From contig JAFUBM010000019.1 of NCBI GenBank assembly GCA_017460225.1, positions 1 to 64,000 on the forward strand: a DNA stretch of 64,000 bases, given 5' to 3'. This DNA is from Candidatus Saccharimonadota bacterium (GTDB lineage Bacteria; Patescibacteriota; Saccharimonadia; Saccharimonadales; Saccharimonadaceae). Position 1 is the stretch's first letter. Each line of letters begins with the position of its first letter. Of this stretch, positions 31,291-59,303 are shown piece after piece. Both the position numbers and the translations under genes were made by a program. The notes beneath the pieces are model-generated. The model searched no databases. It was given only the letters and a program-made list of their open reading frames with translations, and was not told the origin of the DNA.

Positions 31291-31297
31291 GGTTTTT

Positions 31298-44151: not shown

Positions 44152-44180
44152 AAAAAACTTGACTAAAAGTCAAGTTTTTT
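44152..44180. terminator. Bidirectional terminator after the ribosomal operon
   Basis: A perfect 12-bp inverted repeat AAAAAACTTGAC / GTCAAGTTTTTT with loop TAAAA. It ends the infA-rpsI operon on the minus strand. Confidence 0.92.
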
Positions 44181-44205
44181 GCTGTTTTGAACAGAGATAG
44201 AAAGC

Positions 44206-44604: not shown

Positions 44605-45032
44605 TACTTAATCTCCTTTGGATTTTGGGCGGTATGAGCGTGCTCAGCGCCATCAAAGATGCGCAAGCGAGCCAACCGGTCAGCCGCGAGCTTGTTCTTA
44701 GGGAGCATACCCTTGACAGCGGCTTTGATCGCAACAGACGGGTCTTTCTCTATGACTTCTTCGAGCTTGAGCTCGGTGAGGCCGCCGGGGAAGCCGGAGT
44801 GACGATAGTACATCTTGTCTGTTAGCTTGTCGCCAGTGACCTTGAGATGTTTGGCGTTGGTGACGACGACGTAGTCGCCGTTGTCGATATGGGGAGTGAA
44901 AGTAACTTTGCTCTTCCCCATGAGTTTGTCCGCGACGACGACGGCGAGCTTGCCAAGTGGTATAGTGCTGGCGTCGACGACCCACCATTCGCGGGAAATC
45001 TCAGCGGATTTCTGGGAATAGGTTTTCTGCAT
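44604..45032 (-). CDS. rplM: Ribosomal protein uL13
   Basis: A 142-residue uL13, an early 50S assembly protein: WWVVDASTIPLGKLAVVVAD, HIDNGDYVVVTNAKHLKVTG, YYRHSGFPGGLTELKLEEVI and AVKGMLPKNKLAADRLARLRI. It sits between rplQ (2-bp gap) and rpsI, the usual order in many bacteria. Confidence 0.96.
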   Translation of the reverse strand: MQKTYSQKSAEISREWWVVDASTIPLGKLAVVVADKLMGKSKVTFTPHIDNGDYVVVTNAKHLKVTGDKLTDKMYYRHSGFPGGLTELKLEEVIEKDPSVAIKAAVKGMLPKNKLAADRLARLRIFDGAEHAHTAQNPKEIK

Positions 45033-45034
45033 AA

Positions 45035-45430
45035 CTATTTCTTCCCTTTCTTCTCACTCTTAAGCTCGAGATCGATGTCGTCGACGAAAGAAATCGTAGC
45101 TAGTTCGGCGTGGTCTCCCTTGCGGAAGCCGGCGCGCTCAATCTTAAGGTAGCCGGAATTGCGGCTGAGCTGAGGCGCGATGACGTCGATGAGGAGGCTA
45201 GCGACTTCGAGATCGTCCAAACGGGCGATAACGAGGCGACGAGAGGCGAGGGTGCCTTTCTTCGCGAGAGTAACGAGTTTCTCGACTGGGCGGCGGATTT
45301 CCTTAGCCCTTTCGAGAGTCGTGGTAATACTTTGGTATTTGATCAGAGAGCACATCAGCCCACGTTCGAGTGCCTTCCTCTGGTCGGTTTCTCGGCCGAA
45401 CTTGCGGCCTACATATCCGTGGCGGTGCAT
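45035..45430 (-). CDS. rplQ: Ribosomal protein bL17
   Basis: A 131-residue bL17: MHRHGYVGRKFGRETDQRKA, then LMCSLIKYQSITTTLERAKE and RLDDLEVASLLIDVIAPQLS. Binds 23S rRNA near the exit tunnel. The ATG shares a base with the rpoA stop. Confidence 0.95.
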   Translation of the reverse strand: MHRHGYVGRKFGRETDQRKALERGLMCSLIKYQSITTTLERAKEIRRPVEKLVTLAKKGTLASRRLVIARLDDLEVASLLIDVIAPQLSRNSGYLKIERAGFRKGDHAELATISFVDDIDLELKSEKKGKK

Positions 45431-46380
45431 TATTTAGTAAACTCCGTTATTTTATCTTTGACTTCCTCGAGAGCTTTGGAGCCAAAACCTTTGAGATCCT
45501 TGAGCTGGGTCTCGGAGAGACCAACGAGCTGGGAAAGGTTCTTAATTCCGTTGTTCACGAGGGCGTTAGCGGTGCGAGCGGAGAGTCCGAGCTCTTCGAT
45601 CGGGAGGAGGAGACCAGAATTGTCTTCTTCGTCTTCTAGACCCGGGGTAGGAGCGGACTCGACTTTGGTCGAACCGGCTAGGGCTTGGTATTGGTTGACG
45701 AGGATGGCAGCGGCTTCCTCAAAAGCTTCACGCGGGGTAATTGTACCGTCGGTGTCGATGGTGAGGGTGAGCTGCTGGAGGTTGGTATCTTGGCCAACAC
45801 GGGTGTTCTCAACTTTGTAGCGAACGCGAAGTACCGGGGTAAAGACGGCGTCGAGCGCAATCATGTCGGTGTGGATCCGGCCAGCGGCGGATTCGTCGAT
45901 GGTCAGGTAGCCACGACCGGACTCAATCACAAAACGCATCTTGAGAGTGAAGTTGGGATCGTCGATGTGACAGATGACTTGGTTAGGGTTGCCGAGTTCG
46001 ACGTCAGCCGGAAGCTTGAGGTCGGAAGCGACGACACGCTTGTCGCCGTCTTTTTCGGACTGCTTGCTGCCTTTGATCTCAAGGGTAGCTTCGACGGGAG
46101 CGTCGGTGTGGAGCTTAAAGCGAATGTTCTTTAAGTTTAGCATGATATCGACGACGTCTTCGCGGATGCCCGGGATAGCGGAGAATTCGTGAGTCGTGCC
46201 TTCGATAGCAAACGCGGTAATAGCGGCACCTTTGATAGAAGAAAGGAGCACGCGGCGGAGAGAGTTCCCGAGGGTGTTGCCGTAGCCGTAGTAAAGCGGC
46301 TTAATCACGAACTCAGCGCTGTTTTCTCCGAGGTCGTTGACTTCGGCGAGATTGGCTTCGTGGATAGCTTTGGTTGTCAT
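45430..46380 (-). CDS. rpoA: RNA polymerase alpha subunit
   Basis: A 316-residue alpha subunit. N-terminal assembly domain: FVIKPLYYGYGNTLGNSLRR, VLLSSIKGAAITAFAIEGTT, HEFSAIPGIREDVVDIMLNL. A flexible acidic linker (about 245-258) leads to the C-terminal DNA- and activator-binding domain: IEELGLSARTANALVNNGIK, NLSQLVGLSETQLKDLKGFG. Both domains are complete, so UP-element or activator contact is possible. Confidence 0.97.
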   Translation of the reverse strand: MTTKAIHEANLAEVNDLGENSAEFVIKPLYYGYGNTLGNSLRRVLLSSIKGAAITAFAIEGTTHEFSAIPGIREDVVDIMLNLKNIRFKLHTDAPVEATLEIKGSKQSEKDGDKRVVASDLKLPADVELGNPNQVICHIDDPNFTLKMRFVIESGRGYLTIDESAAGRIHTDMIALDAVFTPVLRVRYKVENTRVGQDTNLQQLTLTIDTDGTITPREAFEEAAAILVNQYQALAGSTKVESAPTPGLEDEEDNSGLLLPIEELGLSARTANALVNNGIKNLSQLVGLSETQLKDLKGFGSKALEEVKDKITEFTK

Positions 46381-46400
46381 GTTTTTTTCTCTCCTTTTTA

Positions 46401-47003
46401 CTAGCGCGAGTAATACTCGACGATTAATTGTTCGTTGATACCCACCTCAGCTTCTTCACGCTTTGGTAAACCGGTAACTTCGATTTTGAGTTTTTTGGAG
46501 TCGGCTTTCATCCAAGAAAGAGGAGTGGTAGTGCCCTCGATGGACTTGAAATAGTCGGACTTGGCGGACTTGGGGCGGACCTCAAGGACGTCGCCGGGCT
46601 TGAGCCGAATCGACGGGATGTTGATGCGCTTGCCATTCAAGAGAAAGTGGCCGTGGGAGACGAGCTGGCGAGCTTGGCGACGGGTGGTCGCAAAGCCAGC
46701 ACGGTAGACGGCGTTGTCGGCGCGGCGCTCGAGGAACTGAAGCAGGTTTTCACCGGTCAGACCTTCGGCACGAGTAGCTTCTTTCATGAGTTTGGCAAAC
46801 TGTTTTTCAAGGACACCGTAGAGACGGCGCACCTTTTGCTTTTCGCGGAGCTGGACGAGATAGAGGCTCTGGGAGCGAGAACGCATGCCAGAGTGCTCAC
46901 CCGGGATGCCACTCTTCTTAGCCATAATCTTGGCGGCTTTGGGCGCGAGGGCGTAACCTTCGCGGCGAGATTGTTTGACAATAGGGGAATTATCGCGAGC
47001 CAT
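46401..47003 (-). CDS. rpsD: Ribosomal protein uS4
   Basis: A 200-residue uS4, a primary 16S binder and often the operon's translational regulator. C-terminal S4 domain: LLQFLERRADNAVYRAGFAT, TRRQARQLVSHGHFLLNGKR, INIPSIRLKPGDVLEV. The N-terminus (ARDNSPIVKQSRREGYALAP) lacks the four-Cys zinc site, as in C-minus S4 proteins. One-base overlap with rpsK. Confidence 0.96.
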   Translation of the reverse strand: MARDNSPIVKQSRREGYALAPKAAKIMAKKSGIPGEHSGMRSRSQSLYLVQLREKQKVRRLYGVLEKQFAKLMKEATRAEGLTGENLLQFLERRADNAVYRAGFATTRRQARQLVSHGHFLLNGKRINIPSIRLKPGDVLEVRPKSAKSDYFKSIEGTTTPLSWMKADSKKLKIEVTGLPKREEAEVGINEQLIVEYYSR

Positions 47004-47443
47004 TACGGTTTCCTTTCTCCCTTAGGGCGTACGCCACCGTGCGCGATAGGGGTAATGTCAGTGATGGAGTCGATGCGGATGCCTACGCTAGAGATGGCGC
47101 GGATGGCGCTGTCGCGACCGAGGCCGATACCTTTGACGTAGACGTCGACGCTAGAGAGACCGTGGTCTTTCTTGGCAATCTCCAAGGCTTTTTCTGCGGC
47201 GATTTGGGCGGCGTAGGCGGTACCCTTTTTGGACCCGCGGAAACCGTTGGCACCGGCAGAAGAGCTAGAGAGGACTTCGCCTTTTTTGTCACTGACGCTG
47301 ATAATAGTGTTGTTAAAGGTAGCTTGGATATGGACTTGCCCGGACTGGACAATGCGTTTACCCTTTTTACCTTTAGCGGCTTTGGTAGTTCCTGCTTCAA
47401 CCACAGGAGCTTCAGTAGATGTGTTTTTAACTTCTTCAGACAT
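47003..47443 (-). CDS. rpsK: Ribosomal protein uS11
   Basis: A 146-residue uS11 of the 30S platform with a ~20-residue variable N-terminal extension, then SGQVHIQATFNNTIISVSDK, SSAGANGFRGSKKGTAYAAQ and the C-terminal DITPIAHGGVRPKGERKP. Within the alpha operon between rpsM and rpsD. Confidence 0.96.
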   Translation of the reverse strand: MSEEVKNTSTEAPVVEAGTTKAAKGKKGKRIVQSGQVHIQATFNNTIISVSDKKGEVLSSSSAGANGFRGSKKGTAYAAQIAAEKALEIAKKDHGLSSVDVYVKGIGLGRDSAIRAISSVGIRIDSITDITPIAHGGVRPKGERKP

Positions 47444-47452
47444 AATTTACTC

Positions 47453-47839
47453 CTAGGTTTTGCTGGCGGCTTTAGGTTGTGCACCGCCGACCGCGATCGC
47501 TTTACCCTTACGCGTACGCGCGTTCGTACGGGTACGTTGACCGTTGACCGGGAGACCGGCCTTGTGGCGCAGACCTTTGTAGGAATTAATGTCTTTGAGA
47601 CGTTTGATATTGTTGGTCACGAGGCGTTTCAGATCACCTTCAACGGAATATTTGGCGGAAATAATATCGTTGATTTTCTGTTCTTCAGCCTCGGTGAGAT
47701 CTTTTACCCGAGTGGTAGGCGCAATTTTCGCCTCCGCAAGGATGGCTTTAGAGGTTGTTGGTCCGATACCGTAAACATAAGTGAGAGCGGTCTCAATCTG
47801 TTTCTCGGAGGGGATAACAACGCTAGCAATTCGTGCCAT
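47453..47839 (-). CDS. rpsM: Ribosomal protein uS13
   Basis: A 128-residue uS13 forming head-to-50S bridges: [56 protein letters not shown] and [14 protein letters not shown]. It starts 2 bp after rpmJ. Confidence 0.96.
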
Positions 47840-47841
47840 GC

Positions 47842-47958
47842 TTAACCCTGCCTTTGCTTGTTCTTAGGTTTTTTCTTGTTGATAACTCGGAGCACACCTT
47901 TGCGGCGGACGAGAATATCATCAGGGGAGATTTTTTTAACACTTGCGCGTACTTTCAT
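47842..47958 (-). CDS. rpmJ: Ribosomal protein bL36, cysteine-free form
   Basis: A 38-residue bL36: [20 protein letters not shown], then [10 protein letters not shown] and the ending NKQRQG. The zinc-binding CxxC...C...H set of usual bL36 is gone (C positions read S, D, N). It lies between infA and rpsM, the conserved place for this gene. An AAAGGAAGG ribosome site precedes the ATG. Confidence 0.93.
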
Positions 47959-48021
47959 AGTGTAAAAAATTTTCCTTCCTTTAAGGTTGTTATTATGTAA
48001 TCCTTAGCCTCGTAAGCTAAG

Positions 48022-48240
48022 TTAGCGGCGGAAGCTGATTCTACCCTTTGTAAGATCGTAAGGGGTTAACTCAACGTCGACCGTATCACCGGGCACGAGA
48101 CGGATAAAGTTTTTGCGCATTTTTCCGCTCATGTGCGCAATGATAATATGGCCGTTCTCGAGTTCGACCCTAAACTGAGTATGAGGCAGAGCCTCAACGA
48201 CTTTGCCGGTGAGTTTGATCACTTCCTTTTGACTAGCCAT
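48022..48240 (-). CDS. infA: Translation initiation factor IF-1
   Basis: A 72-residue OB-fold protein: [60 protein letters not shown] and GRISFRR. It binds the 30S A-site with IF-2 and IF-3. First gene of the rpmJ-rpsI operon; a small CTTAG/CTAAG hairpin lies just behind it. Confidence 0.97.
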
Positions 48241-48294
48241 AAATTACCTAGCTATTTTAGCAGATTTTCTAGGATTTTACAAGACTGATTTTGG

Positions 48295-49113
48295 TTAATT
48301 TTCTACGCGGACGGCGCGGACAAATTGGCGCGAGAGATAAGTCTGGCGAGACTGGGACCATTCGCCGATGCAGGAGATCAAGGTCAGCCCTTCGACGCCG
48401 GGAACGGCGGAGACGAGAGCGGTTTTCATATAATTGTCCGACTCGGCGAGGGGGATTTCTTTGTTTTCGACGACTTTGTAGGTAAAAATTTCGCCGTCGC
48501 CGCGCTCGACGGTGATCAAATCACCCTCGAAAAGCTGGTTGATATGCTTGAAGACGCCTTCGATGTTGGGGCCGCCGTTGTGGCCGTCGATGAGGAGGGT
48601 GCGGCCGGAGCCGGGCGTGCCCGAAGCGTTGTACCAGCCAACGTCAAAGATGTTGCCGGGGGTATTGAGCTCGCCGTTGTTTTTGAGCCCCATATTGAGG
48701 ACGCGAGCGTTTTTGATACCGAGCTTGTCGATAGAAAGGTAGCGCGGATGGTCGGCTGGGACGGTATATTCGGCGCGTTGCTCCGCGGTGACTTCGGTCT
48801 CGTCGAGCTCCTCGGTCTCTTCAACGACGGTGGCGGGGGAGCGAGGCGTGCCTTCTTTGCCGGAATAGTAGTAGTATTCCCAGATGCCGGTCTTCACAAA
48901 GAAGATGACGAGGGCTAGGATGACGGCGCCAAAGAGGATTTTGCCAAAGAGATGCTTGGACTCGGAAAGGTCAAGGCCAGACTCGGGAGCGGGAGTTTCT
49001 GGGTATTGGTCGACAATACGGTCTGGGCGAGACGTGGCGCGACGCTTGGCTTTAGGACGCGGCGAGCGTTTGACCTTGGGCTCGGACGATGTTTTTGTAG
49101 TTTTGTTTGGCAT
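48295..49113 (-). CDS. Sortase-family transpeptidase
   Basis: A 272-residue membrane protein: a basic, disordered N-terminus (about 1-50), one membrane helix (about 57-77), and a sortase beta-barrel. Catalytic residues are visible: His in LLIDGHNGG, Cys in LTLISCIGE, Arg in YLSRQFVRAV. Sortases join proteins bearing an LPxTG-like signal to the wall or build pili. The DGHNGG and short loops point to the class E/F-like group. No substrate with an obvious sorting signal is in the window. It stands between infA and secY. Confidence 0.85.
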   Translation of the reverse strand: MPNKTTKTSSEPKVKRSPRPKAKRRATSRPDRIVDQYPETPAPESGLDLSESKHLFGKILFGAVILALVIFFVKTGIWEYYYYSGKEGTPRSPATVVEETEELDETEVTAEQRAEYTVPADHPRYLSIDKLGIKNARVLNMGLKNNGELNTPGNIFDVGWYNASGTPGSGRTLLIDGHNGGPNIEGVFKHINQLFEGDLITVERGDGEIFTYKVVENKEIPLAESDNYMKTALVSAVPGVEGLTLISCIGEWSQSRQTYLSRQFVRAVRVEN

Positions 49114-49134
49114 ATTACCTCCACCCGTGCGGGA

Positions 49135-50601
49135 TTATTTGTTTTTCTTAAAAAGTTTTCTGGGCGCTTTTTTGGGCGCGTCGGCTTGGAAATCGTCGTA
49201 AGTGACCATGAGGGCGCGAGAGTCGAGCGCGCGAAGATTCTCGAGAGCGACGGTGACGACGATGAGTAGCCCAGTTCCGGAGAGCGAGAGCCCGAGCGGA
49301 GCACCCATAGTCTGGATGAAGATGAAGTCGGAGATAAACGGCAGAAGTGCGATGAGACCAAGCGACAGCGCGCCGAAGAGGTTGAGACGGTTGATGATGC
49401 GCTCAAGATACTCGGCAGTCTGCAGGCCGGGGCGAACACCTTCGATGAAGCCGCCTTGTTTCTGGAGATTGTCTGCAATCTCCTTGGTGTTGAAGATGAT
49501 ACTGGTATAGAAATAGGTAAACATAAAGACCAGCAGGAAGTAACAGGCGGGGTAGATAAACCACTTCCAGGTCAGACCGAGGGGGTAGAGGCTGGAGAAG
49601 TTAGAGGCGGAAGGAGCGGTAAAGAGCATAACGATGTTTTGCGCGAGTTCAGCGTCTGGGTTTTTGGATAGGATGAATTGGCCAATAAGCGCTGGGAGCG
49701 AGAGAAAAGCCGTGGCGAAGATGACGGGGATGACGCCGGCGGCGATGAGCTTAAGCGGGAGAATAGAGCGGATGCCACCGTAGGCGGAGTTGCCATGGAC
49801 ACGCTTGGCGTAGTTGATGGTGATGATACGCTGGGCTTCGTTGAGCTTGACTAGGATATAGATAATCAGGACGATGGCGGCGAGGAAAGCGAGACCAATC
49901 CAGAACCAAGTGGGGTTGACTGGGAGGTTGAGCCAGCCAAATAGCGTGAGGCTACCAGCGGAAGTGTCTGTGATGGTGGCCCAAAGACTGGCGAAGATGG
50001 ACGGGAAGCCAGTTATGATGGATGCGAAGATTAACATGGAGATACCGTTACCAATTCCCTGTTCGGTCATCAGTTCACCGAGCCACATGAGGAGCGTGGA
50101 GCCGGCAACCATAGCGGTGATGGCGATAACCCATTCCATAGTGGAGAGGTCTGGCAGGACAGTAGTGGCGGAAGCCACGACGGATTGATAGAGAATGTAA
50201 GAGTAGGCGATAGACTGGACAACGGCGAGAGGAATGGAGCAGATGCGGGTCCATTGGTTAAGCTTGCGGCGACCAGTCTCGCCGTCTTGGGAAATCTCCT
50301 CGAGAGAGGGGATGGCCTTGGATAATAGCTGGATGACGATGGAGCTGGTGATGTATGGCGAGAGCCCGACAAGAATAATGCTAAAACTGGTTAATCCACC
50401 GCCGGAGATCATGTTGAGGAACGAGCCAAAGTCGGAGTTGTTGATGATTTGATGGACGGCGTCGCGGAGCGTGGTGGCTTCGCCGAGCGGGACGGGGATG
50501 TGTGCCAAGAAACGATAAACGAACAAAATGCCCAGGATGATTAAAAATTTCTTGAGCATATCTTTGTTCTTGAAGGATTTGAAAATGGTTTTGAAATGCA
50601 T
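49135..50601 (-). CDS. secY: Preprotein translocase channel SecY
   Basis: A 488-residue channel with ten membrane helices. Motifs: FVYRFLAHIPVPLG (TM1), ISGGGLTSFSIILVGLSPYI (plug and TM2), SLEEISQDGETGRRKLNQWT, LNEAQRIITINYAKRV and GGFIEGVRPGLQTAEYLERI. Somewhat longer than E. coli SecY, with added length in loops. The motor SecA is at 35877. It has its own promoter (TGT-TATTAT, leader about 40 nt), with palindrome copy D upstream. Confidence 0.96.
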   Translation of the reverse strand: MHFKTIFKSFKNKDMLKKFLIILGILFVYRFLAHIPVPLGEATTLRDAVHQIINNSDFGSFLNMISGGGLTSFSIILVGLSPYITSSIVIQLLSKAIPSLEEISQDGETGRRKLNQWTRICSIPLAVVQSIAYSYILYQSVVASATTVLPDLSTMEWVIAITAMVAGSTLLMWLGELMTEQGIGNGISMLIFASIITGFPSIFASLWATITDTSAGSLTLFGWLNLPVNPTWFWIGLAFLAAIVLIIYILVKLNEAQRIITINYAKRVHGNSAYGGIRSILPLKLIAAGVIPVIFATAFLSLPALIGQFILSKNPDAELAQNIVMLFTAPSASNFSSLYPLGLTWKWFIYPACYFLLVFMFTYFYTSIIFNTKEIADNLQKQGGFIEGVRPGLQTAEYLERIINRLNLFGALSLGLIALLPFISDFIFIQTMGAPLGLSLSGTGLLIVVTVALENLRALDSRALMVTYDDFQADAPKKAPRKLFKKNK

Positions 50602-50667
50602 CGTGAACCTCGGGTAAAATTACTTTATCTATAATAACATAGGTTATGCGAAAAATCTAGAAAAATG

Positions 50668-50942
50668 GTTTTCTTTCGAGTTGGTTTTATGAGGACATAG
50701 TTGAGGTCGGAGAGTCGAAGAAAGCCAAAAACATATTTTTTCGCTGGTCCTCCTCCGCCCTATAAAAATAGCAACATATCAGTCTAGCTCGCGCTCGATC
50801 ACCTAATCGCTCACTGCGTTCGCTCTACGGTTACTCGCACTCGCTAGTGAATGTTGTTATTTTTATCGGGGGAGATGCGGATTCGCTCAAAAATAGTTTT
50901 TGGCTTTCTGCTGTTCTATTGGACATTGCGTCGAAAGAAAAC
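50668..50942. repeat. Giant imperfect palindrome, copy D
   Basis: A 275-bp palindrome between the HD gene and secY. Perfect arms: GTTTTCTTTCGA (50668-50679) with TCGAAAGAAAAC (50931-50942); AGAAAGCCAAAAAC (50719-50732) with GTTTTTGGCTTTCT (50896-50909); a third arm pair 50762-50777 with 50851-50866 matches 15 of 16 with one G-T. The centre is CTAGC/GCTAG-like and GC-rich. The outer ends match copies A and E. Confidence 0.85.
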
Positions 50943-50951
50943 TGTTTTTGG

Positions 50952-50975
50952 CTGGGCGGGGTCGTTCCCGCCCAG
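50952..50975. repeat. GC-rich hairpin beside copy D
   Basis: CTGGGCGGG / CCCGCCCAG (50952-50960 with 50967-50975), with flank GTTTTTGG, is nearly identical to the hairpin at 31300-31323. Confidence 0.75.
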
Positions 50976-51005
50976 AAAAAGCCCTTCGCCTGAAGCTGAA
51001 GGGCT
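50976..51005 (-). terminator. Terminator after the HD-domain gene
   Basis: Minus strand stem AGCCCTTC / GAAGGGCT (50980-50987 with 50998-51005) followed by TTTTT. Confidence 0.8.
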
Positions 51006-51011
51006 GGAGAA

Positions 51012-51647
51012 TTAGGATTTGCGAGATTGATTAAACGCGAATTGGAGCTTCTTGAACTCGGCTGGGTCGCGAGTAATTTCTTCAACTTTCTTTAAGAATG
51101 CAATGTATTCGTCTTTAAGAAAGTAGATTTTGTTTGCTGCATAACCGTTGGGCGAATACTTTTTGCGCAAGATTTGGCGAACCGCCTCGCAACGTTCGTC
51201 GTCGTTGTAGTTTGGGTGAAGAACGCCGTTATAATCCCAAGCGCGAGCAAGAATTTCCTCGATGTCGTGAGAGCGGTCGGCCGAAGAAACGATTTTGCCA
51301 TAAAGGCTGCGCGGCTCATGATCGAGCGAAGCACGGTGGTCTTCGACGGCTTGCGCCATAGTTTCGATATCTTCTGGCGGGAAAAGTTCGGCCAACTTTG
51401 CGTCGCGACGCAATAGATACCCAGACCATTTATTATGCGTTTCGTTGTCGATTTCTCGACCGAGGTCGTGATAAGCCGCGATGACGTAAACCATGTCGAT
51501 ATCGACATCTGCTAGGCTTTCAGCGATGCGCAAACTACGCGCGATAACTTGTTCAATATGGTCGCTGGTGTGTCCGGGGAGTTTGCGGTAACGCGGTAGG
51601 ATTTCGGCTTCGATATAGTGTTTGACTTTTGGACAAATTTCTCTCAT
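51012..51647 (-). CDS. HD-domain phosphohydrolase
   Basis: A 211-residue metal-dependent phosphohydrolase. HD superfamily signature: His in GHTSDHIEQVIARSL, the HD pair in IAAYHDLGREID, and a later Asp in SSADRSHDIEE. Substrates of such proteins are nucleotides or cyclic nucleotides; none is indicated. It has its own promoter (TGT-TATAAT) and a ~45-nt leader with GGAGG, and separates the rplF-rplO operon from secY, which are normally adjacent. Confidence 0.8.
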   Translation of the reverse strand: MREICPKVKHYIEAEILPRYRKLPGHTSDHIEQVIARSLRIAESLADVDIDMVYVIAAYHDLGREIDNETHNKWSGYLLRRDAKLAELFPPEDIETMAQAVEDHRASLDHEPRSLYGKIVSSADRSHDIEEILARAWDYNGVLHPNYNDDERCEAVRQILRKKYSPNGYAANKIYFLKDEYIAFLKKVEEITRDPAEFKKLQFAFNQSRKS

Positions 51648-51701
51648 ATAATAATCCTCCGTTTCTGTAAGGTTCTGCCCATTGGCGAATATTATAACAT
51701 A

Positions 51702-51727
51702 AAAAATAGCCCCGAGGGGCTATTTTT
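51702..51727 (-). terminator. Terminator of the rplF-rplO operon
   Basis: Inverted repeat AAAAATAGCCCC / GGGGCTATTTTT (51702-51713 with 51716-51727) gives a T run on both strands; it directly follows rplO on the minus strand. Confidence 0.9.
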
Positions 51728-51730
51728 CGG

Positions 51731-52198
51731 TTATTCGTCGGCTTTTTTGGCTTCGCGCATAGGGACGGGGGTCTTCTTGAAAGAGCCACCGGCCTTTTTG
51801 AGAGCTTCAACCGCGGATTTGGAAGCGAATTGAGTCTCGAGCGCGATTTTGCTCTTGAGCTCGCCGCGAGAGATAACTTTTACCTTAACGTACGGGCTGG
51901 AGATAAAGTGTTTCTCGGCGAGGACAAAGTTGTCGACGTTACCGGAGAGCTCGTTCAAGACATCCGTGTAGACAACTTCTGCCTTGCTATGCAAAGATTT
52001 GAAGCCTTTGAGCTTTGGGATGGCCTGCATAATGGCGCGTTGACCGCCCATAAAGCCGTTTGGCATCTTGCGATGACCAGTACGAGCCTTCTGACCCTTA
52101 GTACCACGGCCGGCGGTTTTGCCCTGGCCGGCGGAGATGCCGCGACCCTTGCGGGACGGGCGAGTGTTGGCGTTGACAGTTAGATCATTGTACTTCAT
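51731..52198 (-). CDS. rplO: Ribosomal protein uL15
   Basis: A 155-residue uL15, a late 50S assembly protein: the Gly/Arg-rich start (RKGRGISAGQGKTAGRGTKG, QKARTGHRKMPNGFMGGQRA) and C-terminal domain VVYTDVLNELSGNVDNFVLA. In most bacteria rpmD stands between rpsE and rplO; here rplO overlaps rpsE by one base and rpmD is absent. Confidence 0.96.
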   Translation of the reverse strand: MKYNDLTVNANTRPSRKGRGISAGQGKTAGRGTKGQKARTGHRKMPNGFMGGQRAIMQAIPKLKGFKSLHSKAEVVYTDVLNELSGNVDNFVLAEKHFISSPYVKVKVISRGELKSKIALETQFASKSAVEALKKAGGSFKKTPVPMREAKKADE

Positions 52199-52839
52199 TA
52201 TTTATCCTCCTTTTTGGCAGAGGCTTTTTTAGCGACGGTAGTGGTCCACTCGGCGCGCGGAGTCTGGGCACGGAGGCCATCAATCACGGCGTAGGCGATG
52301 TTGACCTTGTTGGTCGAGCCGAGGCTCTTAGAGATGAGGTTCTTGACGCCAGTGAGGCCGATAATCGAACGGACGACACCGCCAGCGATAATACCAGTAC
52401 CCGGAGCGGCAGGCTTCATCAGGACGTTGGCGCCGGTAACCTTGGTCTCGACTTCGTGGCAGATAGTCTCGCCATCCATGGCAAAGGTTACCATGTTTTT
52501 CTTGGCCTTGGTAGTGGCTTTTTGGACGGCAGAGGTAACGTCGTTACCCTTGGCGACAGCAACGCCGACTTTGTTCTTGTGGTTGCCAACGGCAACGAGA
52601 GCTTTGAAGCGCATACGGCGACCACCGGCAACGGTGCGGGAGACACGATAGATATGGATCGTGGTCTCGTCGAACTCTTTAGGAGCGTCGCTAACACGGT
52701 TGCGGTCGCGGCGGCCGTTGCGGTTCATCCGGCGGCCAGAGATGTCGCGCGTCTCTTTCTTGGCGGCGACAGCGTCGGACATTTTGAGGGTGCCGGCTTT
52801 GTTAATAACTTTGGCTTTGGTTTCTTTAGTTTCGGGCAT
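52198..52839 (-). CDS. rpsE: Ribosomal protein uS5
   Basis: A 213-residue uS5 important for decoding accuracy. A variable basic N-terminus of about 50 residues comes first, then the double-stranded RNA-binding fold (VAGGRRMRFKALVAVGNHKN, KVGVAVAKGNDVTSAVQKAT) and the C-terminal domain (APGTGIIAGGVVRSIIGLTG, KSLGSTNKVNIAYAVIDGL). Confidence 0.96.
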   Translation of the reverse strand: MPETKETKAKVINKAGTLKMSDAVAAKKETRDISGRRMNRNGRRDRNRVSDAPKEFDETTIHIYRVSRTVAGGRRMRFKALVAVGNHKNKVGVAVAKGNDVTSAVQKATTKAKKNMVTFAMDGETICHEVETKVTGANVLMKPAAPGTGIIAGGVVRSIIGLTGVKNLISKSLGSTNKVNIAYAVIDGLRAQTPRAEWTTTVAKKASAKKEDK

Positions 52840-52840
52840 A

Positions 52841-53170
52841 TTAGAACTCCAATCCTTCTTTCCTAGCCGCGTCAGCGAGGGCGGACATCCGACCAGCGTA
52901 GAGTTTGGACCCGCGGTCGAAGACGGCTTTGGAGATTTTGGCTTTTTTAGCTTTTTTGCCGAGTTCGGCGCCGATCTGGGCGGCGAGTTCGGTCTTGGTG
53001 CCCTTGAGTTTGGTGCCGACGGTAGAAGCGTAGACGAGAGTCACGCCTTTGTCGTCATTGATGAGCTGGGCGGTAATGTGCTTGTTTGAGATGTTGACGC
53101 TGAGGCGTGGGCGCTCGGCGGTACCGTGGATTTTAGCGCGGGTACGATTTGCGCGGAAAATAGCTTTCAT
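52841..53170 (-). CDS. rplR: Ribosomal protein uL18
   Basis: A 109-residue uL18 that binds 5S r[43 protein letters not shown] and [20 protein letters not shown]. The ATG at 53170 (MKAIFRANR) is used; a longer frame would run into rplF. One-base gap to rpsE and rplF. Confidence 0.95.
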
Positions 53171-53171
53171 A

Positions 53172-53708
53172 TTATTTCTTCCCTGCCTTTCCAGCCTTGC
53201 GGAGGATTTGCTCATCCACGTACTTGATACCTTTGCCCTTGTAAGGCTCAGGCTTCTTGAGGCTTCTAATTTCTGCCGCGACCTGGCCGACTTTTTGTTT
53301 GTCGATGCCGGAGACGGTGATGTTCATCTTGTCGACTTTGAGGTCGATACCGTCAGGGGCGGTGTATTTAACGGGATGAGAAAAGCCGAGGGCCATCTCA
53401 ATTTGTTTGCCGCCGCCTTGGAGACGGAAGCCAACGCCGTTGATTTCTAGTTGTTTGGAAAAGCCTTTGGTGACGCCGATGACGGCGTTGTTTAACAAGG
53501 CTCTTTGGAGACCGTGCCAAGCGCGAGATTCGGGCTCGTCGTCCGTGCGAGTAACGACGATTTTGTCGCCTTCGACGGCGGTCTGAGTGTTTTTCTGAAC
53601 CGGAACATTGAGCGAACCCTTAGGTCCAGCGACGGTAATTTCCGTTTCGCCGACCGTAATTGTCACTCCTGCCGGAACTTGGATAGGTTGTTTTCCGATA
53701 CGACTCAT
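53172..53708 (-). CDS. rplF: Ribosomal protein uL6
   Basis: A 178-residue uL6 with its two repeated domains: [30 protein letters not shown]-like [34 protein letters not shown] and [20 protein letters not shown]. It is the first gene of a short operon (rplF-rplR-rpsE-rplO) with a TAAAAT box upstream; rpsH, rplE and the rest of the S10/spc cluster are not in the window. Confidence 0.96.
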
Positions 53709-53778
53709 TTGATTCCTTAGGTTAGTAATATCTAGCGCATTTTAGCATATTTTGCGAGATTTTACAAGAGGAAAATTG

Positions 53779-55938
53779 TTAGCGAGCGACGCAACGGACG
53801 GGGGTGGGGGACTTTTTCTCGTAATTAGAGGAGTTGGCGGTGCCCCTAGTGTATCTATAAGCGTAAGCCGTGGTGCTGGCATAACTTTGCCTGGACCAAA
53901 GATAGGCTAAAGATCCGCCGTTGTAACCGCTAGAATTAGAGTAGTAGCCGGAGGCCTGGGCGGAAAATGGCAGAACAGTGCCGGCAGTACCCCCACTAAG
54001 TGCCGTTCTAGTCGGCAGCATCCAACCACGAGGACAAATGCTTCTGGTGGCGGTCGTAAATGTAGCCCCTACAGTTTCCGCCACTGCGGCGTACCAGTTA
54101 TAGTAGGTTATGCCATTTGCAACCAGCATACGAGCCTGACCGGCCGATGCACCAGTATAGGAGTTTTTGACTGTGCTTGCATCTGGCGTCCAGTCGGCGG
54201 CTAGATCGCTGTCTGCCGGCGTAAGAGTGCCGACGATTGAGAGATCAAGACGGAGATTTTCGACCATCCAGCAGCTACCGTTGGAAAGACGACGGACGAG
54301 GTAGACGTTATTATCACGCGTGTCGGTAAGGGCGAAAGTGCCGAGGCCAGTGGCGGTATTGGCGGCGAGGGTGGCTTCGGTGTCGACGATGGTGGTTTCT
54401 TCGCCGGTTTCTTCGTCGATTGCAGTAGTCATGATATCTTCGACGAGCTGGGTGGCGCCGGAATAGTCAAGAATTCGAGCATTGTCACCAACTTGGTTGC
54501 TCCAGCGGTTGGTGTTCTTACAAACATCGCTAGTGATGCCCTGCATGGTGTCGACATAATAGTCGCCAGCGGCGTCTTTAGACTGGAGACCGGCGTAAAT
54601 AGCGGAGGCGACGAAGTTGGTACCGTCGGTGTATTTGCTGAGATAATTATAGCCGTATTCTGGGATGGAGACCCAAAAATCGTAGAGGCCGGCGTGTTGG
54701 TCTGGGTCGGCGGAGTCGGATAAATTGCCGGCGGGAGTGAGGTCGGGCATGGTGAAGGTAATCATAGCACCGGTATTGCTCAAGCTAAAGTTAGTACTAG
54801 TAACAGTAATCGAGATGGCGGTGCCGGCGGAGACGGCGACACGGATGGGGTCGTCTGCATCATCGGTGATGGTATAGTTGGCGGACTCGACAATATCGTG
54901 AGGAACGAGATAGAGCTCGACTTTGTCGTAAGTAACAACATCAGCGGTGGAGGCCGAGAGATCGAAAGATAAGACTTCTGTAGCGCCGTTAGCGACGTAA
55001 GCTTGGCTGCGAGAGATGTTACTAGAGACAGCATCGAGAGCGTCGGAGGAAGCAAGGGCGGTATAGACGAGAGTGTTTTGGTATGTTCCGGCGAGGACGT
55101 CCGTGTCGATCATGACGCCATAGTAGACATCGAACGTAAAATTAGTGTCGCCGGAGGGGCCAAAGCCGGCAGAGTTGTTGGTTGAGGCGGACCAGATTTC
55201 TTGAGACTGGCCGTAGACTGGGACGGCAGCCCATTTGTCGCGATTGTAGACGGCAGAATGGTCGAGGGCGTTTAGCTCGATGCCGAGAGTGCTGGAAGAG
55301 AAGGTAGAGGATTGGGTAAAGTCGGACTGGGCGGAGCCGTCGGATTTGGGGACGCTAGTACCGGGGACGGCATAACCCCAAGTAGCATCAGAGAAGGCGA
55401 CGGGAGAATCCCAAGTGCCGCCGATGGTGGGGATGGTGAGACCGGAGTTGGCGGCGGTGTGCTGGAGGTCGCTAGTGTATTGGTTGTTGCTATCGACGCC
55501 GCTGGTGGAAAGGAAGACACGGAAATACTGCCCCTCAGTAGTGACAGCGATGGTTTTCTTGATGACGACTTCGGTGCCAATATTACTGCCGGAAGTGGTC
55601 GAGGGATGGATACCGGTTGTACCGCCGAACAGAATGTTGCCGTGGTCGGAGTCGGAGATGCTACCGCCAGCTTGGGTGGCGGCATAATCTGGGTCGAGCT
55701 CGACGGAGACGGCCGCCCAAGAGACTGCGGCGTCGACGGCTTGGGAGGCGTTAGCTTCTGTGATGAGATAAGGCGTAATCACAAAAGAGAGGAGGAAGAG
55801 AGCGAGACAAGCGAGTGAACAATAGAAGGACTTCCGGATGCTAGCAGTAGACGGATTGCAATAGTGTCCAATATAATCACCGAGGTGATAAGCGTCTGCT
55901 CCTTTCCGGACGGTTAAAGATTTTTGCTGGTCTTGCAT
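53779..55938 (-). CDS. Large secreted FISUMP-domain surface protein (paralogue 2)
   Basis: A 719-residue paralogue of the protein at 7559. The N-terminus again has a ~40-residue pre-signal stretch with GDYIGHYCNP and SIRKSFYCSLACLALFLLSF before the hydrophobic core, then a Ser/Thr/Asp-rich beta region with ELDPDYAATQAGGSISDSDH. The C-terminal ~220 residues form the FISUMP domain: GSCWMVENLRLDLSIVGTLT, ITYYNWYAAVAETVG, ICPRGWMLPTRTAL, ending PTPVRCVAR. The last part (about 650-710) is rich in Tyr, Ser, Asn and Gly and differs strongly from paralogue 1, while the N-terminal 75 codons are very similar even at DNA level. Probably a displayed adhesin-like protein. Confidence 0.75.
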   Translation of the reverse strand: MQDQQKSLTVRKGADAYHLGDYIGHYCNPSTASIRKSFYCSLACLALFLLSFVITPYLITEANASQAVDAAVSWAAVSVELDPDYAATQAGGSISDSDHGNILFGGTTGIHPSTTSGSNIGTEVVIKKTIAVTTEGQYFRVFLSTSGVDSNNQYTSDLQHTAANSGLTIPTIGGTWDSPVAFSDATWGYAVPGTSVPKSDGSAQSDFTQSSTFSSSTLGIELNALDHSAVYNRDKWAAVPVYGQSQEIWSASTNNSAGFGPSGDTNFTFDVYYGVMIDTDVLAGTYQNTLVYTALASSDALDAVSSNISRSQAYVANGATEVLSFDLSASTADVVTYDKVELYLVPHDIVESANYTITDDADDPIRVAVSAGTAISITVTSTNFSLSNTGAMITFTMPDLTPAGNLSDSADPDQHAGLYDFWVSIPEYGYNYLSKYTDGTNFVASAIYAGLQSKDAAGDYYVDTMQGITSDVCKNTNRWSNQVGDNARILDYSGATQLVEDIMTTAIDEETGEETTIVDTEATLAANTATGLGTFALTDTRDNNVYLVRRLSNGSCWMVENLRLDLSIVGTLTPADSDLAADWTPDASTVKNSYTGASAGQARMLVANGITYYNWYAAVAETVGATFTTATRSICPRGWMLPTRTALSGGTAGTVLPFSAQASGYYSNSSGYNGGSLAYLWSRQSYASTTAYAYRYTRGTANSSNYEKKSPTPVRCVAR

Positions 55939-56187
55939 GGTTCCTACCTCTCTTTAGCTTTTGCATCCTCTGTGGATGCCAAGGTTTGCGAGCTGGTAAG
56001 AATTACTGCTTACAAAAATGGCACCACGAGGGTGCACAAGTCAATCGAGTCAACTTACGTGTTTTTCAAGTAAGCAAATCAATCAGCTTTCCTCATGGCG
56101 CCAATTCTAATTTGCTTAACTTAAAAACCAAATTGATAGGTACACGCAGTTTTGATTTCTCAAAACTTTGACTCAATAAACTTGTGC
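55939..56187 (-). promoter_or_regulatory. Structured ~250-nt 5' leader of FISUMP gene 2 (riboregulator candidate)
   Basis: Same order of elements as the leader at 9851. On the minus strand: hairpin GTTTTGA-gaaa-TCAAAAC; long-range helix TGGCGCCATGAGG / CCTCGTGGTGCCA (13 pairs including G-U); inner hairpin CTTAC/GTAAG; local hairpin GCACC-ctcgt-GGTGC (56021-56035) competing with the long helix; last hairpin GCATCC-acaga-GGATGC right before the ribosome site. Promoter: TTGCGA, 17-base spacer, TGC-TATTAT (56194-56222). Confidence 0.6.
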
Positions 56188-56254
56188 AGTTCTATAATAG
56201 CAAAGCTTTTGCGGTTTCGCAAGCCCTTTTTGCCATTTTAAAAAGTCTTTATGG

Positions 56255-56260
56255 TAAAAT
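56255..56260 (+). promoter_or_regulatory. Extended -10 of the candidate RNA gene
   Basis: TGG-TAAAAT, about 10 bases before the start of the closing stem of the downstream RNA. Confidence 0.5.
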
Positions 56261-56266
56261 AAATTA

Positions 56267-56486
56267 TAGATAACTTTGTGGCTAAAACAAGGCAAGTACG
56301 TAATAATCTGGTGAGTAGAAGGGAGGTAGAATGGATGAACATTCAAATTCGTCTCGGGCGATTACGCCTAACTCTGAAGATGAAACTCGCCCTCGTTAGA
56401 CGAAGGCGATAATTCATTTTATCCATACTTAGTATAAACCTAAGCCGACTAAAAGTCAACCACAAGTTATAAACCTCGCCAAATAT
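56267..56486 (+). ncRNA. Candidate structured RNA (~200 nt) with possible micro-ORF
   Basis: The ends pair: ATAACTTTGTGG (56270-56281) with CCACAAGTTAT (56460-56470), one bulge. Inside are ATGGAT/ATCCAT, GGCG-atta-CGCC, CGCCcTCGTtagACGAaGGCG, CTTAG-tataaac-CTAAG and GACT-aaaa-GTC. A strong terminator follows. Alternatively it is an mRNA: GGGAGGT precedes two overlapping ATGs, giving 22 codons (56331-56399) or 25 codons (56335-56412; MNIQIRLGRLRLTLKMKLAL then Val and four Arg). No tmRNA, RNase P, SRP or 6S signature was recognised. Confidence 0.5.
56335..56412 (+). CDS. Possible 25-residue Arg/Leu-rich micro-protein
   Basis: ATG at 56335 lies 7 nt after GGAGGT; the product carries nine basic and no acidic residues, alternating with Leu/Ile, and ends in four Arg. 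An overlapping 22-codon frame starts 4 bases earlier and encodes an acidic/polar peptide. The start codon lies in a predicted stem. It may be a real cationic peptide, a leader peptide, or chance inside a structured RNA. Confidence 0.3.
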   Translation: MNIQIRLGRLRLTLKMKLALVRRRR

Positions 56487-56522
56487 CCGCTCCGGAGATT
56501 GGATCTCTGGAGCGGTTTTTTT
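56487..56522 (+). terminator. Strong rho-independent terminator after the candidate RNA
   Basis: 12-bp stem CCGCTCCGGAGA / TCTCTGGAGCGG (56487-56498 with 56504-56515), one G-T pair, loop TTGGA, then seven T. Confidence 0.92.
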
Positions 56523-56527
56523 GATTT

Positions 56528-57895
56528 TTAGTCATCGGCGTGGGTTTTGTCGAGAGACATAAAGCGCAGGAGCTCGGGGTGGAAGTAGAGCTCGATTTTG
56601 CCGACGGGGCCGTGGCGGTGCTTGGCGATAATCAGCTCGGTAATGTTAGTGGGGACAAAATCTGGCTTGTTCTGATTATAATAGTCGACACGGTGGAGGA
56701 ACATAACGATGTCGGCGTCTTGCTCGATAGAGCCGGACTCACGGAGGTCCGAGAGGACCGGACGCGGGTCGTCGCGGCCGGTGACGGAACGTGAAAGCTG
56801 GGCGAGCGCCACCACCGGGACTTCTAGCTCGCGAGCGAGCTGCTTAAGACCGCGGGAAATCTCCGTAACTTCTTGGACACGGTTGCCGGCATAGCGATCG
56901 GTCCCCTGGAGAAGCTGAAGGTAATCAACGACAATCATACCAATATCGTGGTCATGGGCGGCGCGGCGGGCCTTGTTGCGCAGCTCTAGAATAGTCATGG
57001 CGGAAGAATCGTCGAGATAAAGCGGGACGGAGTCCATCTCGCCGAGAGCATCGCCGATACGGCCAAAATCTTCGTCCGTGACGTTGCCGGTGCGGATTTT
57101 CCAGTTATCCACGCCGGAGACGTCAGAAATCATACGGTCTACGATCTCGGCGTTGGCCATCTCCATCGAGAAGAAAAGCACTCCGCGTTGGTTGATCGTG
57201 GCGGCATTGTAGGCTAGATTCTCGGCAAAGGTGGTTTTGCCCATGGCCGGGCGAGCACCAATAATGATTAGGTCTCCCTTTTGGAAGCCGGCGGTGATTT
57301 TGTCGAGGTCGCGGAAGCCGGTTTTAAGACCGCGGAGCGCACCTTTGTTGCGATGGAGCTCTTCCATACGGTCAAAAGCGTCGGCAAGGAGCGATTCGAG
57401 CGCGACGTATTCGGTTTTGGTGGTTTTGTCTGAGACTTCAAAGAGGGCTTTTTCTGCATTACCTAAGAGGTCGGGGATTTCTGCCCCCTCTTCGTAGGCG
57501 GATTCGGCGATATTGGTTCCGGCTTGGATGAGCCGGCGACGGACGGCGCACTTAGTTACAAGGTCTGCATAAGCCTGAGCGTGAGAAGCGGTGGGGACAA
57601 AATTGGTGAGCTCTGTAAGATAGGCTGCCCCGCCGACGGATTTGAGCGCTTTGGCGGCGCGGAGCTCGGCCGTGACGGTCAAAAGGTCAATCGGGCGGTG
57701 GTGTTGATAAAGCGAGACAAAGGCGGCAAAAATCTTCTCATGGCGCTGGTCGTAAAAATCTTTGGCTTTGACAATTTCTAGGACATCCGGAAAAGCGGCG
57801 TCGGAGAGCAGCAGCGCTCCGAGCAAGGACTTCTCCGCGACTAGATCTTGGGGCGGGACGCGGCCAGAACTGGCGTTAGAAGGGGACTCCTCCAT
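56528..57895 (-). CDS. dnaB: Replicative DNA helicase
   Basis: A 455-residue DnaB hexameric helicase. N-terminal primase-binding domain: PPQDLVAEKSLLGALLLSDA; RecA-type core: LIIIGARPAMGKTTFAENLA (Walker A), MIVVDYLQLL (Walker B), VVALAQLSRSVTGR, RESGSIEQDADIVMFLHR and IIAKHRHGP (arginine finger region). Its first 20 bases overlap the end of dnaX, so helicase and clamp-loader genes are translated together. No intein. Confidence 0.97.
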   Translation of the reverse strand: MEESPSNASSGRVPPQDLVAEKSLLGALLLSDAAFPDVLEIVKAKDFYDQRHEKIFAAFVSLYQHHRPIDLLTVTAELRAAKALKSVGGAAYLTELTNFVPTASHAQAYADLVTKCAVRRRLIQAGTNIAESAYEEGAEIPDLLGNAEKALFEVSDKTTKTEYVALESLLADAFDRMEELHRNKGALRGLKTGFRDLDKITAGFQKGDLIIIGARPAMGKTTFAENLAYNAATINQRGVLFFSMEMANAEIVDRMISDVSGVDNWKIRTGNVTDEDFGRIGDALGEMDSVPLYLDDSSAMTILELRNKARRAAHDHDIGMIVVDYLQLLQGTDRYAGNRVQEVTEISRGLKQLARELEVPVVALAQLSRSVTGRDDPRPVLSDLRESGSIEQDADIVMFLHRVDYYNQNKPDFVPTNITELIIAKHRHGPVGKIELYFHPELLRFMSLDKTHADD

Positions 57896-59303
57896 CTTGG
57901 TTAGTGTTTACCTCCGTTACATTACCCATTATATCAGAAATTGCCTGGATTTCTGGCGATTTTTCTACGGGAGCGTCAGCGGGGCTGTGGATAACGAAGG
58001 GTTTGGCGAAATAAGCTCGCAATAGCTCTTGGTTGTTCTCGCGAGACAGAATCAGCTTGGTGACGTTTTGCTTTGGGTAAATATGGATAGCGTCGGGGGA
58101 TTCTTGGATGGTGCATTTGGCGAGCTGCTGTTGTAATGCAGAGGTAAGCGTGGTTCCGGCTTTGGGGCTTGCGGTCGGCAGATTCTTCCTCGCTAGGGAA
58201 AATTCAGTCGGATTTTCAGCGTCGTTCAGGCGGTCTGCGGGCAAAGCCGTTCGGGTAGCACCGGCCACGTTTTGCCCTTGACCGTTCTCTCCGCTAAAAA
58301 TCCGTGAATTTTCTTTAGTCGCTTCGGAAGAACTGGCCGACCCGCGCCATAAGCCGGAACTGTTTTCTGACTTAAGGTCTGATAGGAGCGCGACGAGGAG
58401 TTTGGCTTCTGGGAAGGGGGCGGAGACGGAGGGAAGCTTTTCTAGGAGCGGGAGGAGCGCGGGCGAGGGAGCGGAGATGATTTTGGCAATCAAAGCTTCC
58501 GCGAGAGACTCGGGCTTTAGACCCTCGGAGAGAAGAGATTTGAGAGTGGAAGTTAGAGCCGTAGCGTTGCCGGAGGCGTAGGCGGAGAGTAAGTCGGAGA
58601 CTGTGGAGTCGAGCGGAAGACCGAGGAGATTAGCGATGGTAGACTCGGAGAGCTCGGATTTGCCATCGGAGACGGTGGAGATTTGGTCGAGGAGAGAGAG
58701 TGTGTCGCGGAAAGAACCCCCGCCGCGGGAGATGATAACCCGGAGCGCGGAATCAGAGATTTTAATTTTTTCTGCATCGCAGATGGAGCGGAGGTGAGAG
58801 AACATCGTCTCGGCGCTAGCGAGACGGAAGCGGAAGACTTGGGAGCGGGAAGTGATAGTGACCGGGACTTTTTCAAGATCTGTCGTGGCGAGAATAAAGA
58901 CTACGTGCGCTGGCGGCTCTTCGAGCGTCTTAAGCAGGGCGTTGAACGCGGGCTTGGAAAGCATATGGACTTCGTCGATGATGTAAACCTTGTACTTCCC
59001 TTCTGAGGGAGCAATCAGCGCTTTTTCTCGGAGGTCGCGAATGTTGTCCACTCCGGTATTGCTGGCCGCGTCAATCTCGATAATGTCGAGATAAGAATCC
59101 TCCAGCTCGTAGGGGAAACCGTTGAGCTCGTGCGCAAGAATCCGGGCAACGGAGGTCTTACCGCAACCGCGCGGGCCGGTAAAGAGATAAGAGTGCGACA
59201 GCTTGCCGGACTTGAGAGCGGCAGAAAGCGGCTCGGTAACCTGGGGTTGACCGATAACTTCCGCGAGGGAGCGGGGGCGATATTTGCGATAGAGAGCGAG
59301 CAT
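57876..59303 (-). CDS. dnaX: DNA polymerase III gamma/tau subunit with palindrome-encoded insert
   Basis: A 475-residue clamp-loader ATPase. Walker A LFTGPRGCGKTSVARILA, Walker B VYIIDEVHMLSKPAFNALLK, sensor 1 FILATTDLEKVPVTITSRSQ. The four-Cys zinc module normally found after Walker A is absent; the sequence runs AHELNGFPYELEDSYLDIIE, then IDAASNTGVDNIR. Residues about 315-384 are a low-complexity stretch (GLWRGSASSSEATKENSR ... NPTEFSLARKNLPTASPK) encoded exactly by the palindromic element 58153-58360. It falls in the linker before the C-terminal tau-type domain. The gene overlaps the upstream unknown gene by 1 base. Confidence 0.94.
   Translation of the reverse strand: MLALYRKYRPRSLAEVIGQPQVTEPLSAALKSGKLSHSYLFTGPRGCGKTSVARILAHELNGFPYELEDSYLDIIEIDAASNTGVDNIRDLREKALIAPSEGKYKVYIIDEVHMLSKPAFNALLKTLEEPPAHVVFILATTDLEKVPVTITSRSQVFRFRLASAETMFSHLRSICDAEKIKISDSALRVIISRGGGSFRDTLSLLDQISTVSDGKSELSESTIANLLGLPLDSTVSDLLSAYASGNATALTSTLKSLLSEGLKPESLAEALIAKIISAPSPALLPLLEKLPSVSAPFPEAKLLVALLSDLKSENSSGLWRGSASSSEATKENSRIFSGENGQGQNVAGATRTALPADRLNDAENPTEFSLARKNLPTASPKAGTTLTSALQQQLAKCTIQESPDAIHIYPKQNVTKLILSRENNQELLRAYFAKPFVIHSPADAPVEKSPEIQAISDIMGNVTEVNTNQDGGVPF
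58153..58360. repeat. Giant imperfect palindrome, copy B, inside dnaX
   Basis: 208 bp lying wholly in the dnaX frame. Arms: GTTCCGGCTT (58153-58162) with AAGCCGGAAC (58351-58360); GGTCGGC and TTCTTCC (58173-58179, 58183-58189) with GGAAGAA and GCCGACC (58326-58332, 58336-58342); AAAATTC with GAATTTT; GGATTTT with AAAATCC; centre 58241-58275 is the same 35 bases as copy A. It adds about 70 codons without a stop. Confidence 0.88.

Follow-up and report, generated by a model that had tools for sequence, protein, structure and literature searches.

What is encoded in the short stretch of DNA between a FISUMP surface-protein gene and dnaB in a Saccharibacteria genome? Saccharibacteria are very small bacteria that depend on a host, and their genomes are reduced to about 0.7 Mb. 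The window, by which we mean the whole 64,000-nucleotide stretch analysed, is contig G000:C10 of a genome of 694,526 bases whose inferred genus is Candidatus Nanosyncoccus (Saccharimonadota). An earlier note on this DNA described a complete noncoding-gene architecture that also held two overlapping micro-ORFs, and offered a new RNA family and a regulated cationic micro-protein as alternatives.

A Micro-Gene between a FISUMP Gene and dnaB

The region at 56252–56522 (+ strand) is a micro-gene with an extended −10 element, a predicted transcript of about 255 nt, a strong terminator and a 25-residue peptide, and is more than a noncoding RNA. Its orientation is opposite to that of both neighbors, the FISUMP gene (53779–55938, − strand; Pfam PF09603, E 1.3e-10) and dnaB (56528–57895, − strand). 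Orthology by gene order after dnaB was rejected because a glycosyltransferase-like gene sits there in most relatives, and for the same reason we regard the locus as lineage-specific.

The promoter-like box noted earlier is present as TGGTAAAAT (56252–56260, + strand), an extended −10 recognized by eye, with transcription expected to start near 56267. Many relatives have TTGAAA-N17-TACAAT or TG-N-TAnnnT as their sense promoter. In a plain −35/−10 scan this promoter was weak, scoring at least 10 in 5 of 13 copies of subfamily 1 and 1 of 30 copies of subfamily 2 (both introduced below), and the window's own was not above shuffles. The strong terminator was also found (56487–56522, + strand), with a 13-bp stem, 8 G-C, and seven T; subfamily 2 has no clear sense terminator. 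Promoter and terminator together imply a micro-mRNA of about 255 nt (56267–56522, + strand). Within it lie the internal hairpins that had been described and a good ribosome site, the Shine-Dalgarno sequence GGGAGG (56321–56326, + strand), 8 nt before the ATG and replaced by AAAGGAG or GGAGG in relatives.

The 256 nt fold at −77.3 kcal/mol (z = −4.5), with 0 of 200 shuffles as low. For the 214 nt left without the terminator, z was −2.2 on the + strand, where 2 of 200 shuffles folded as low, and −2.0 on the − strand, where 6 of 200 did. Because the terminator supplies most of the z of −4.5, folding energy alone is modest evidence, and it is conservation that carries the case for the micro-gene.

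Several features of the surrounding DNA deserve mention. About 14 kb that include ribosomal-protein genes (41161–56528) part dnaB from the glycosyltransferase-like gene that adjoins it in most relatives, and FISUMP, not rpsH, precedes rplF; the usual gene order is rpsH before rplF. A promoter divergent from the micro-gene (TTGCGA-N17-TATTAT with TG before the −10; 56222–56194, − strand) likely serves the FISUMP gene. Dispersed repeats pair 31099–31254 with 58177–58332 (79% identical) and 31284–31325 with 50936–50977 (93% identical; hairpin-like GGCTGGGCGGGGTC element).

Relatives and Distribution

In 60 relatives, blastn found no homologue beyond the window itself. Among 174 same-genus genomes it found one, 78% identical over window positions 56249–56475. 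Searching with the 25-residue peptide gave 8 places in 7 of the 174 genomes, and a peptide profile run on 392 genomes of the order gave three further full copies. With a DNA pattern built on the conserved 5′ motif, the GTDB contig collection gave 12 matching stretches, all from Candidatus Saccharibacteria; those titles that name a source give sheep, roe deer, yak and a rumen strain. The same pattern had no match among IMG/VR viral contigs.

A second peptide type (MEVEVENIKVTIKLKIAPRKKSN and variants) was found in 49 of the 174 genomes at E ≤ 0.05, weak rows included. Our sequence profile R1 matched 97 places in 54 of them (E ≤ 0.01). Since R1 also matches second-type copies, the two types are related at the DNA level. 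Its match to the window copy covers 56265–56485 at E 9.7e-35, with that copy itself included in the model. The weakest R1 rows include chance matches: the antisense promoter described below was present in 32 of 40 places read (missing in L222, L235, L240, L242, L244, L249, L254 and L256), a count that is partly circular because R1 was built with the antisense-promoter region. When the search was taken beyond the genus, R1 matched 16 of 364 genomes of the order and 1 of 152 genera (E ≤ 1e-4), and the second peptide profile matched 26 of 392 genomes, of which 25 belong to the genus. By sequence profile, homologues are confined to the genus of the window, Candidatus Nanosyncoccus. Among weak A2 hits, L129–L131, L133, L135 and L137 were rejected as lying inside other genes or having no control parts; L134 and L138–L142 were left out of this inspection.

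Copies of the window type (subfamily 1) number 14 full-length places in 12 genomes, and genomes can hold several copies at different sites. The statistics below use 13 of these 14, leaving out the G077 copy, and 30 loci of subfamily 2. Five of the 13 subfamily 1 loci neighbor FISUMP genes, three lie beside priA, three follow tgt and two are elsewhere, with neighbors named by eye except for the window's FISUMP gene (Pfam). Two copies 1.5 kb apart, L232 and L233 (G113:C7), share 91 of 110 bases upstream of the start codon, while their first 75 ORF bases are the same at only 23 positions; the pair has its control region in common but not its peptide.

The 25-Residue Peptide

Both micro-ORFs exist as described, one of 22 residues from 56331 and one of 25 from 56335, but only the longer is supported, as the ATG of the shorter is TTG in the nearest relative. 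The 25-residue ORF MNIQIRLGRLRLTLKMKLALVRRRR (56335–56412, + strand) has nine K/R, the number of basic residues given in the earlier note. It aligns without indels in G099, the nearest relative, at 76% identity, and a hand count over the 25 codons gave 5 changes at first, 0 at second and 8 at third codon positions. Subfamily 2 showed pN/pS of 0.24 and differences per codon position of 0.216, 0.047 and 0.407 (29 of 30 loci, the one without an in-frame ATG being left out). In subfamily 1, pN/pS was 0.22 for the short type (3 loci) and 0.46 for the long type (9 loci); the reading frame of the L155/G127 copy is broken. From these codon-position patterns, clearest in subfamily 2, we conclude that the peptide is translated and under protein-level selection.

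What looked like a complete noncoding gene is an mRNA. Both sides of the earlier alternative hold: there is protein-level conservation of the peptide, and the RNA, likewise conserved, has structure and no counterpart in Rfam. Start codon and stems, which the note had proposed to compare, are both kept in relatives (the start codon of the 25-residue ORF, and helices H1 and H2 below).

Hydrophobic and polar residues alternate in the window peptide, which is strand-like, with no membrane helix. Its best 14-residue Kyte-Doolittle mean is 0.64, and its moment is 0.65 at the strand angle versus 0.16 at the helix angle. Hydropathy and moment predict no alpha-helical transmembrane segment in it; hydrophobic relatives reach 1.9. 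Among the relatives are very hydrophobic peptides, e.g., MGLEINLLFGLFQIKIIRSRKSE, and hydrophobic ones with basic tails, and some other variants are nearly neutral or acid-rich, e.g., MEELELDYVIVKLKKKSPRSSEEKS. The FGL hydrophobic and acid-rich types were left out of the statistics. The encoded cationic peptides span 24–27 residues, with C-terminal basic tails.

Long-Range Helices in the mRNA

The closing stem that had been noticed is real by our test, and we call it H1; its 5′ arm (56269–56281, + strand) pairs with its 3′ arm (56460–56470, + strand). Across the 13 subfamily 1 copies, cognate arms paired at −15.75 kcal/mol and non-cognate arms at −9.65 kcal/mol, with a permutation p of 5e-5 that is optimistic, like the other helix p values given here, because the sequences are related. 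A wide-window test in subfamily 1, made before the windows were narrowed to the arms, gave p 0.008, and the cognate test in subfamily 2 gave p 1e-4. The inner helix proposed for subfamily 2 fell short of significance (p 0.10).

The 5′ arm of a second helix, H2, is the conserved motif at 56306–56315 (+ strand), which ends five nt before the ribosome site and pairs with 56475–56484 (+ strand), just before the terminator. Over the 13 copies 99.1% of cells were paired, with both-side changes in 4 of 9 pairs; in the window copy 8 of 9 pairs are formed. The covariation score of H2 plus the ORF-end hairpin was 0.297, versus 0.192 when shuffled (0 of 500) and 0.016–0.131 when slid. Compensatory changes support the presence of both helices in the mRNA. 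H1 and H2 cross, and the predicted structure is therefore a pseudoknot. Ribosome-site access, calculated by nested folding without pseudoknots for the 13 copies, averaged 0.30 in full-length RNA and 0.30 in 3′-trimmed RNA.

A Predicted Convergent Antisense Unit

What we consider decisive in the gene layout had escaped the earlier reading: an antisense transcription unit, conserved among the copies, that converges on the micro-gene from the opposite strand. Its promoter, TTGACT-N17-TATACT (56431–56459, − strand), lies just past the stop codon, and the predicted antisense RNA of about 42–43 nt (56381–56423, − strand) would end at a terminator hairpin (56387–56409) inside the ORF end. In the window copy this terminator has a weak T-run (GTTTCATCT). 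A sigma-70-like antisense promoter with a 17-base spacer was present in all 43 copies (13/13 in subfamily 1, 30/30 in subfamily 2), and in 40 of the 43 it was joined by a terminator-like hairpin and T-rich tail (12/13 and 28/30). A terminator-like signal occurred in 4–7% of shuffles. Under the same criteria the promoter was found at 0 of 74 control ORF ends in the window, the controls being the ends of window ORFs of at least 150 residues, spurious ORFs among them. Promoter and terminator predict an antisense RNA of about 42 nt over the ORF end, one that stops short of the ribosome site.

The T-rich tail of this RNA is the complement of the K-L-K-I core of the peptide. Lysines under the antisense T-run are encoded by AAA rather than otherwise at 52:8 in subfamily 2, compared with 34:58 for the remaining lysines (p 7e-10), and at 16:1 compared with 6:11 in subfamily 1 (p 8e-4), both p values being optimistic because the sequences are related. 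Given this bias, the bases of the protein motif and of the antisense terminator seem to be selected in both directions, which suggests that one DNA stretch serves both.

At L217, L218 and L225 we saw 3′ halves of the micro-gene (antisense promoter, hairpin and terminator) without an ORF start; those at L217 and L218 come, by eye, after an apparent FISUMP end. Such halves are either orphan antisense RNAs or just borrowed terminators.

Database Searches and Known Systems

The RNA had been called unassigned, and so it stayed, with no match for the micro-gene in any Rfam family above gathering. At gathering, Rfam gave only a tRNA-Leu in the whole window; at E ≤ 10, positions 56100–56600 gave six weak hits, all far below gathering; and seven relatives gave no match at E ≤ 5. 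The peptides matched nothing in Pfam, NCBIfam or PHROGs, the plasmid search gave no match, and the RNA showed no similarity to the rest of its own genome at E ≤ 1. Among phages there were 13 weak matches at E 0.1, mostly within reductase genes, which we took as chance, as we did a 35-nt match at the end of a TlyA-like ORF in L069. Several known RNAs were rejected as identities: the genome has a normal RNase P RNA elsewhere, ARAGORN found no tmRNA or tRNA at the locus, and a DGR or reverse-transcriptase RNA was set aside because the RNA is similar to nothing else in the genome, which does have a reverse transcriptase. The micro-gene resembles Rfam structured RNA families in being a discrete structured intergenic RNA with its own terminator; it differs in its peptide product and in having no credible match. 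Literature searches, mostly outside subscription papers, found no type I toxin-antitoxin system in Saccharibacteria or the candidate phyla radiation. Papers pairing Saccharibacteria with antisense RNA were unrelated by title, and none were found that pair them with small RNA and toxin-antitoxin. We rate the family as new, nameless in every library searched, and the kind of system as already known.

Elsewhere, at L084:8470–8700, uvrB is preceded by a strong promoter and a structured intergenic RNA whose ends are complementary; by eye this RNA is 6S-like, and it has no Rfam match at E ≤ 0.5.

In the aapA/IsoA type I toxin-antitoxin system of Helicobacter and its relatives, as described for Helicobacter in PMC6733600, an 80-nt antisense RNA overlaps the mRNA, a 5′–3′ long-distance interaction blocks translation until 3′ trimming, and the antisense RNA represses the rest. 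The likeness extends to micro-ORF size (AapA3 has 30 residues, the peptide here 25), several copies per genome, a convergent overlapping antisense RNA (predicted here) and 5′–3′ long-distance pairing of the mRNA, a hallmark that H1 and H2 supply in the micro-gene. By analogy, we propose that the order of events could be the same. The micro-gene differs in its crossing long-range helices (a pseudoknot), in an antisense RNA of about 42 nt over the ORF end, and in a window peptide that is strand-like and poly-basic, not a membrane helix; the systems are compared here by layout.

Membrane type I toxins (Fst, Ibs, TisB, Ldr, AapA) share with the micro-gene a length below 60 residues, a basic C-terminus and antisense control (predicted here), and the FGL-type relatives are hydrophobic as well. 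The window peptide, in contrast, is strand-like with no helical membrane segment, and we therefore do not class it with the known membrane toxins. A 2021 review (PMC8309996) states that descriptions of membrane-associated type I toxins had until then come only from Proteobacteria and Firmicutes.

A Probable Type I Toxin-Antitoxin-like Module and Its Rivals

On our best reading the micro-gene probably belongs to a new family of type I toxin-antitoxin-like modules in gut and rumen Saccharibacteria. The + strand would yield a small, folded mRNA in which the crossing helices H1 and H2 hold the 5′ end to the 3′ end, and which encodes a cationic peptide of 24–27 residues. From the convergent promoter past the stop codon would come an antisense RNA of about 42 nt, ending at the hairpin within the ORF and complementary to the final two fifths of the ORF together with the beginning of the 3′ UTR. 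Full-length mRNA would be kept poorly translated, 3′ trimming would open it, and the antisense RNA would silence the opened form, so that peptide would be made only on loss of the antisense RNA. Such a module presumes transcription of both strands, repression and a toxic peptide.

Comparison of the copies supports this reading through protein-level selection on the peptide, compensatory changes in both helices, and a kept antisense promoter and terminator. Two marks of a type I system can be recognized in sequence, a small ORF under such selection and an overlapping antisense gene with promoter and terminator, and both are found. The AAA bias under the antisense T-run, multiple copies per genome, C-terminal basic tails, very hydrophobic relatives and the likeness to aapA/IsoA also favor it. 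Against it stand the lack of a helical membrane segment in the window peptide, the equal ribosome-site access of full-length and trimmed RNA, an antisense RNA that stops short of the ribosome site, the unclear sense terminator and inner-helix p of 0.10 in subfamily 2, the broken L155/G127 frame and the weak sense promoter. Since access does not differ, the antisense RNA falls short and the peptides are mixed, we favor the statement that the micro-gene works like a type I system, and do not claim a membrane type I toxin.

A broader claim is more tentative, and we would put it slightly below an even chance: that the copies make up a new superfamily of type I toxin-antitoxin modules, found throughout a genus of host-dependent Saccharibacteria and the first of its kind from the Candidate Phyla Radiation. 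In it the control parts (promoters, tied mRNA ends and an antisense RNA of about 42 nt) would be constant, the peptide would be strand-like and poly-basic in some members and hydrophobic or acid-rich in others, and its lysine-rich core would double as antisense terminator. A multi-copy family of antisense-paired micro-genes would mean that reduced Saccharibacteria genomes keep RNA-controlled peptide modules and that type I-like systems extend to a bacterial branch where literature searches gave none, and its variants would form a natural peptide series under one RNA control scheme.

The main rival, which we think rather unlikely, keeps the same RNA control and does away with growth arrest: the product would be a non-toxic antisense-controlled micro-protein, a basic peptide made on demand that perhaps binds RNA, DNA or the ribosome. 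An alternating strand-like pattern with a poly-basic tail, seen in the window peptide and in subfamily 2, would fit such a role, as would the nearly neutral or acid-rich variants and the single position, upstream of a recA-like gene by eye, that many subfamily 2 copies keep. However, patchy presence, multiple copies and fast peptide divergence with constant control parts suit toxin-antitoxin better than a housekeeping peptide.

It is improbable that the peptide is incidental and that the gene serves to make the structured RNA itself, as a noncoding RNA of a new kind with a pseudoknot. A conserved 5′ motif and the compensatory changes in both long-range helices would fit such an RNA, but the ORF substitution pattern and the conserved ribosome site and start codon speak against it, as do relatives that keep the control parts while the peptide changes. 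More improbable still is a short mobile repeat of the MITE kind, to which the inverted repeats at the ends of subfamily 2 (GGGGTTGACA ... TGTCAACCCC) and the scatter of copies over different sites would point; it is opposed by protein-level selection, by arms that vary between copies yet remain complementary, by orthologous positions kept across species (three copies lie beside priA and three follow tgt) and by the lack of a match in IMG/VR viral contigs. We give hardly any credence to the idea that the micro-gene is an accessory to the FISUMP genes and to the system that diversifies them, since, although FISUMP genes or cassettes adjoin 5 of 13 subfamily 1 copies by eye (window, G099, G180a, G175 and G143) and 6 of 6 genomes tested have a reverse transcriptase, the other 8 are by eye not beside FISUMP (L155, one of these, follows a large surface-like ORF) and the RNA resembles nothing else in the window's own genome (E ≤ 1).

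Two observations concern the FISUMP genes themselves. Between obg and uvrB at L084:7282–8453 (G099:C17) lie four silent FISUMP C-terminal cassettes of about 217 nt in tandem, with a micro-gene among them; the cassettes look like a sequence store on which gene conversion or retro-diversification could draw. The genome of the window has a FISUMP C-terminal fragment next to a reverse transcriptase at G000:C4:365–1683, which is probably that genome's diversity-generating retroelement.
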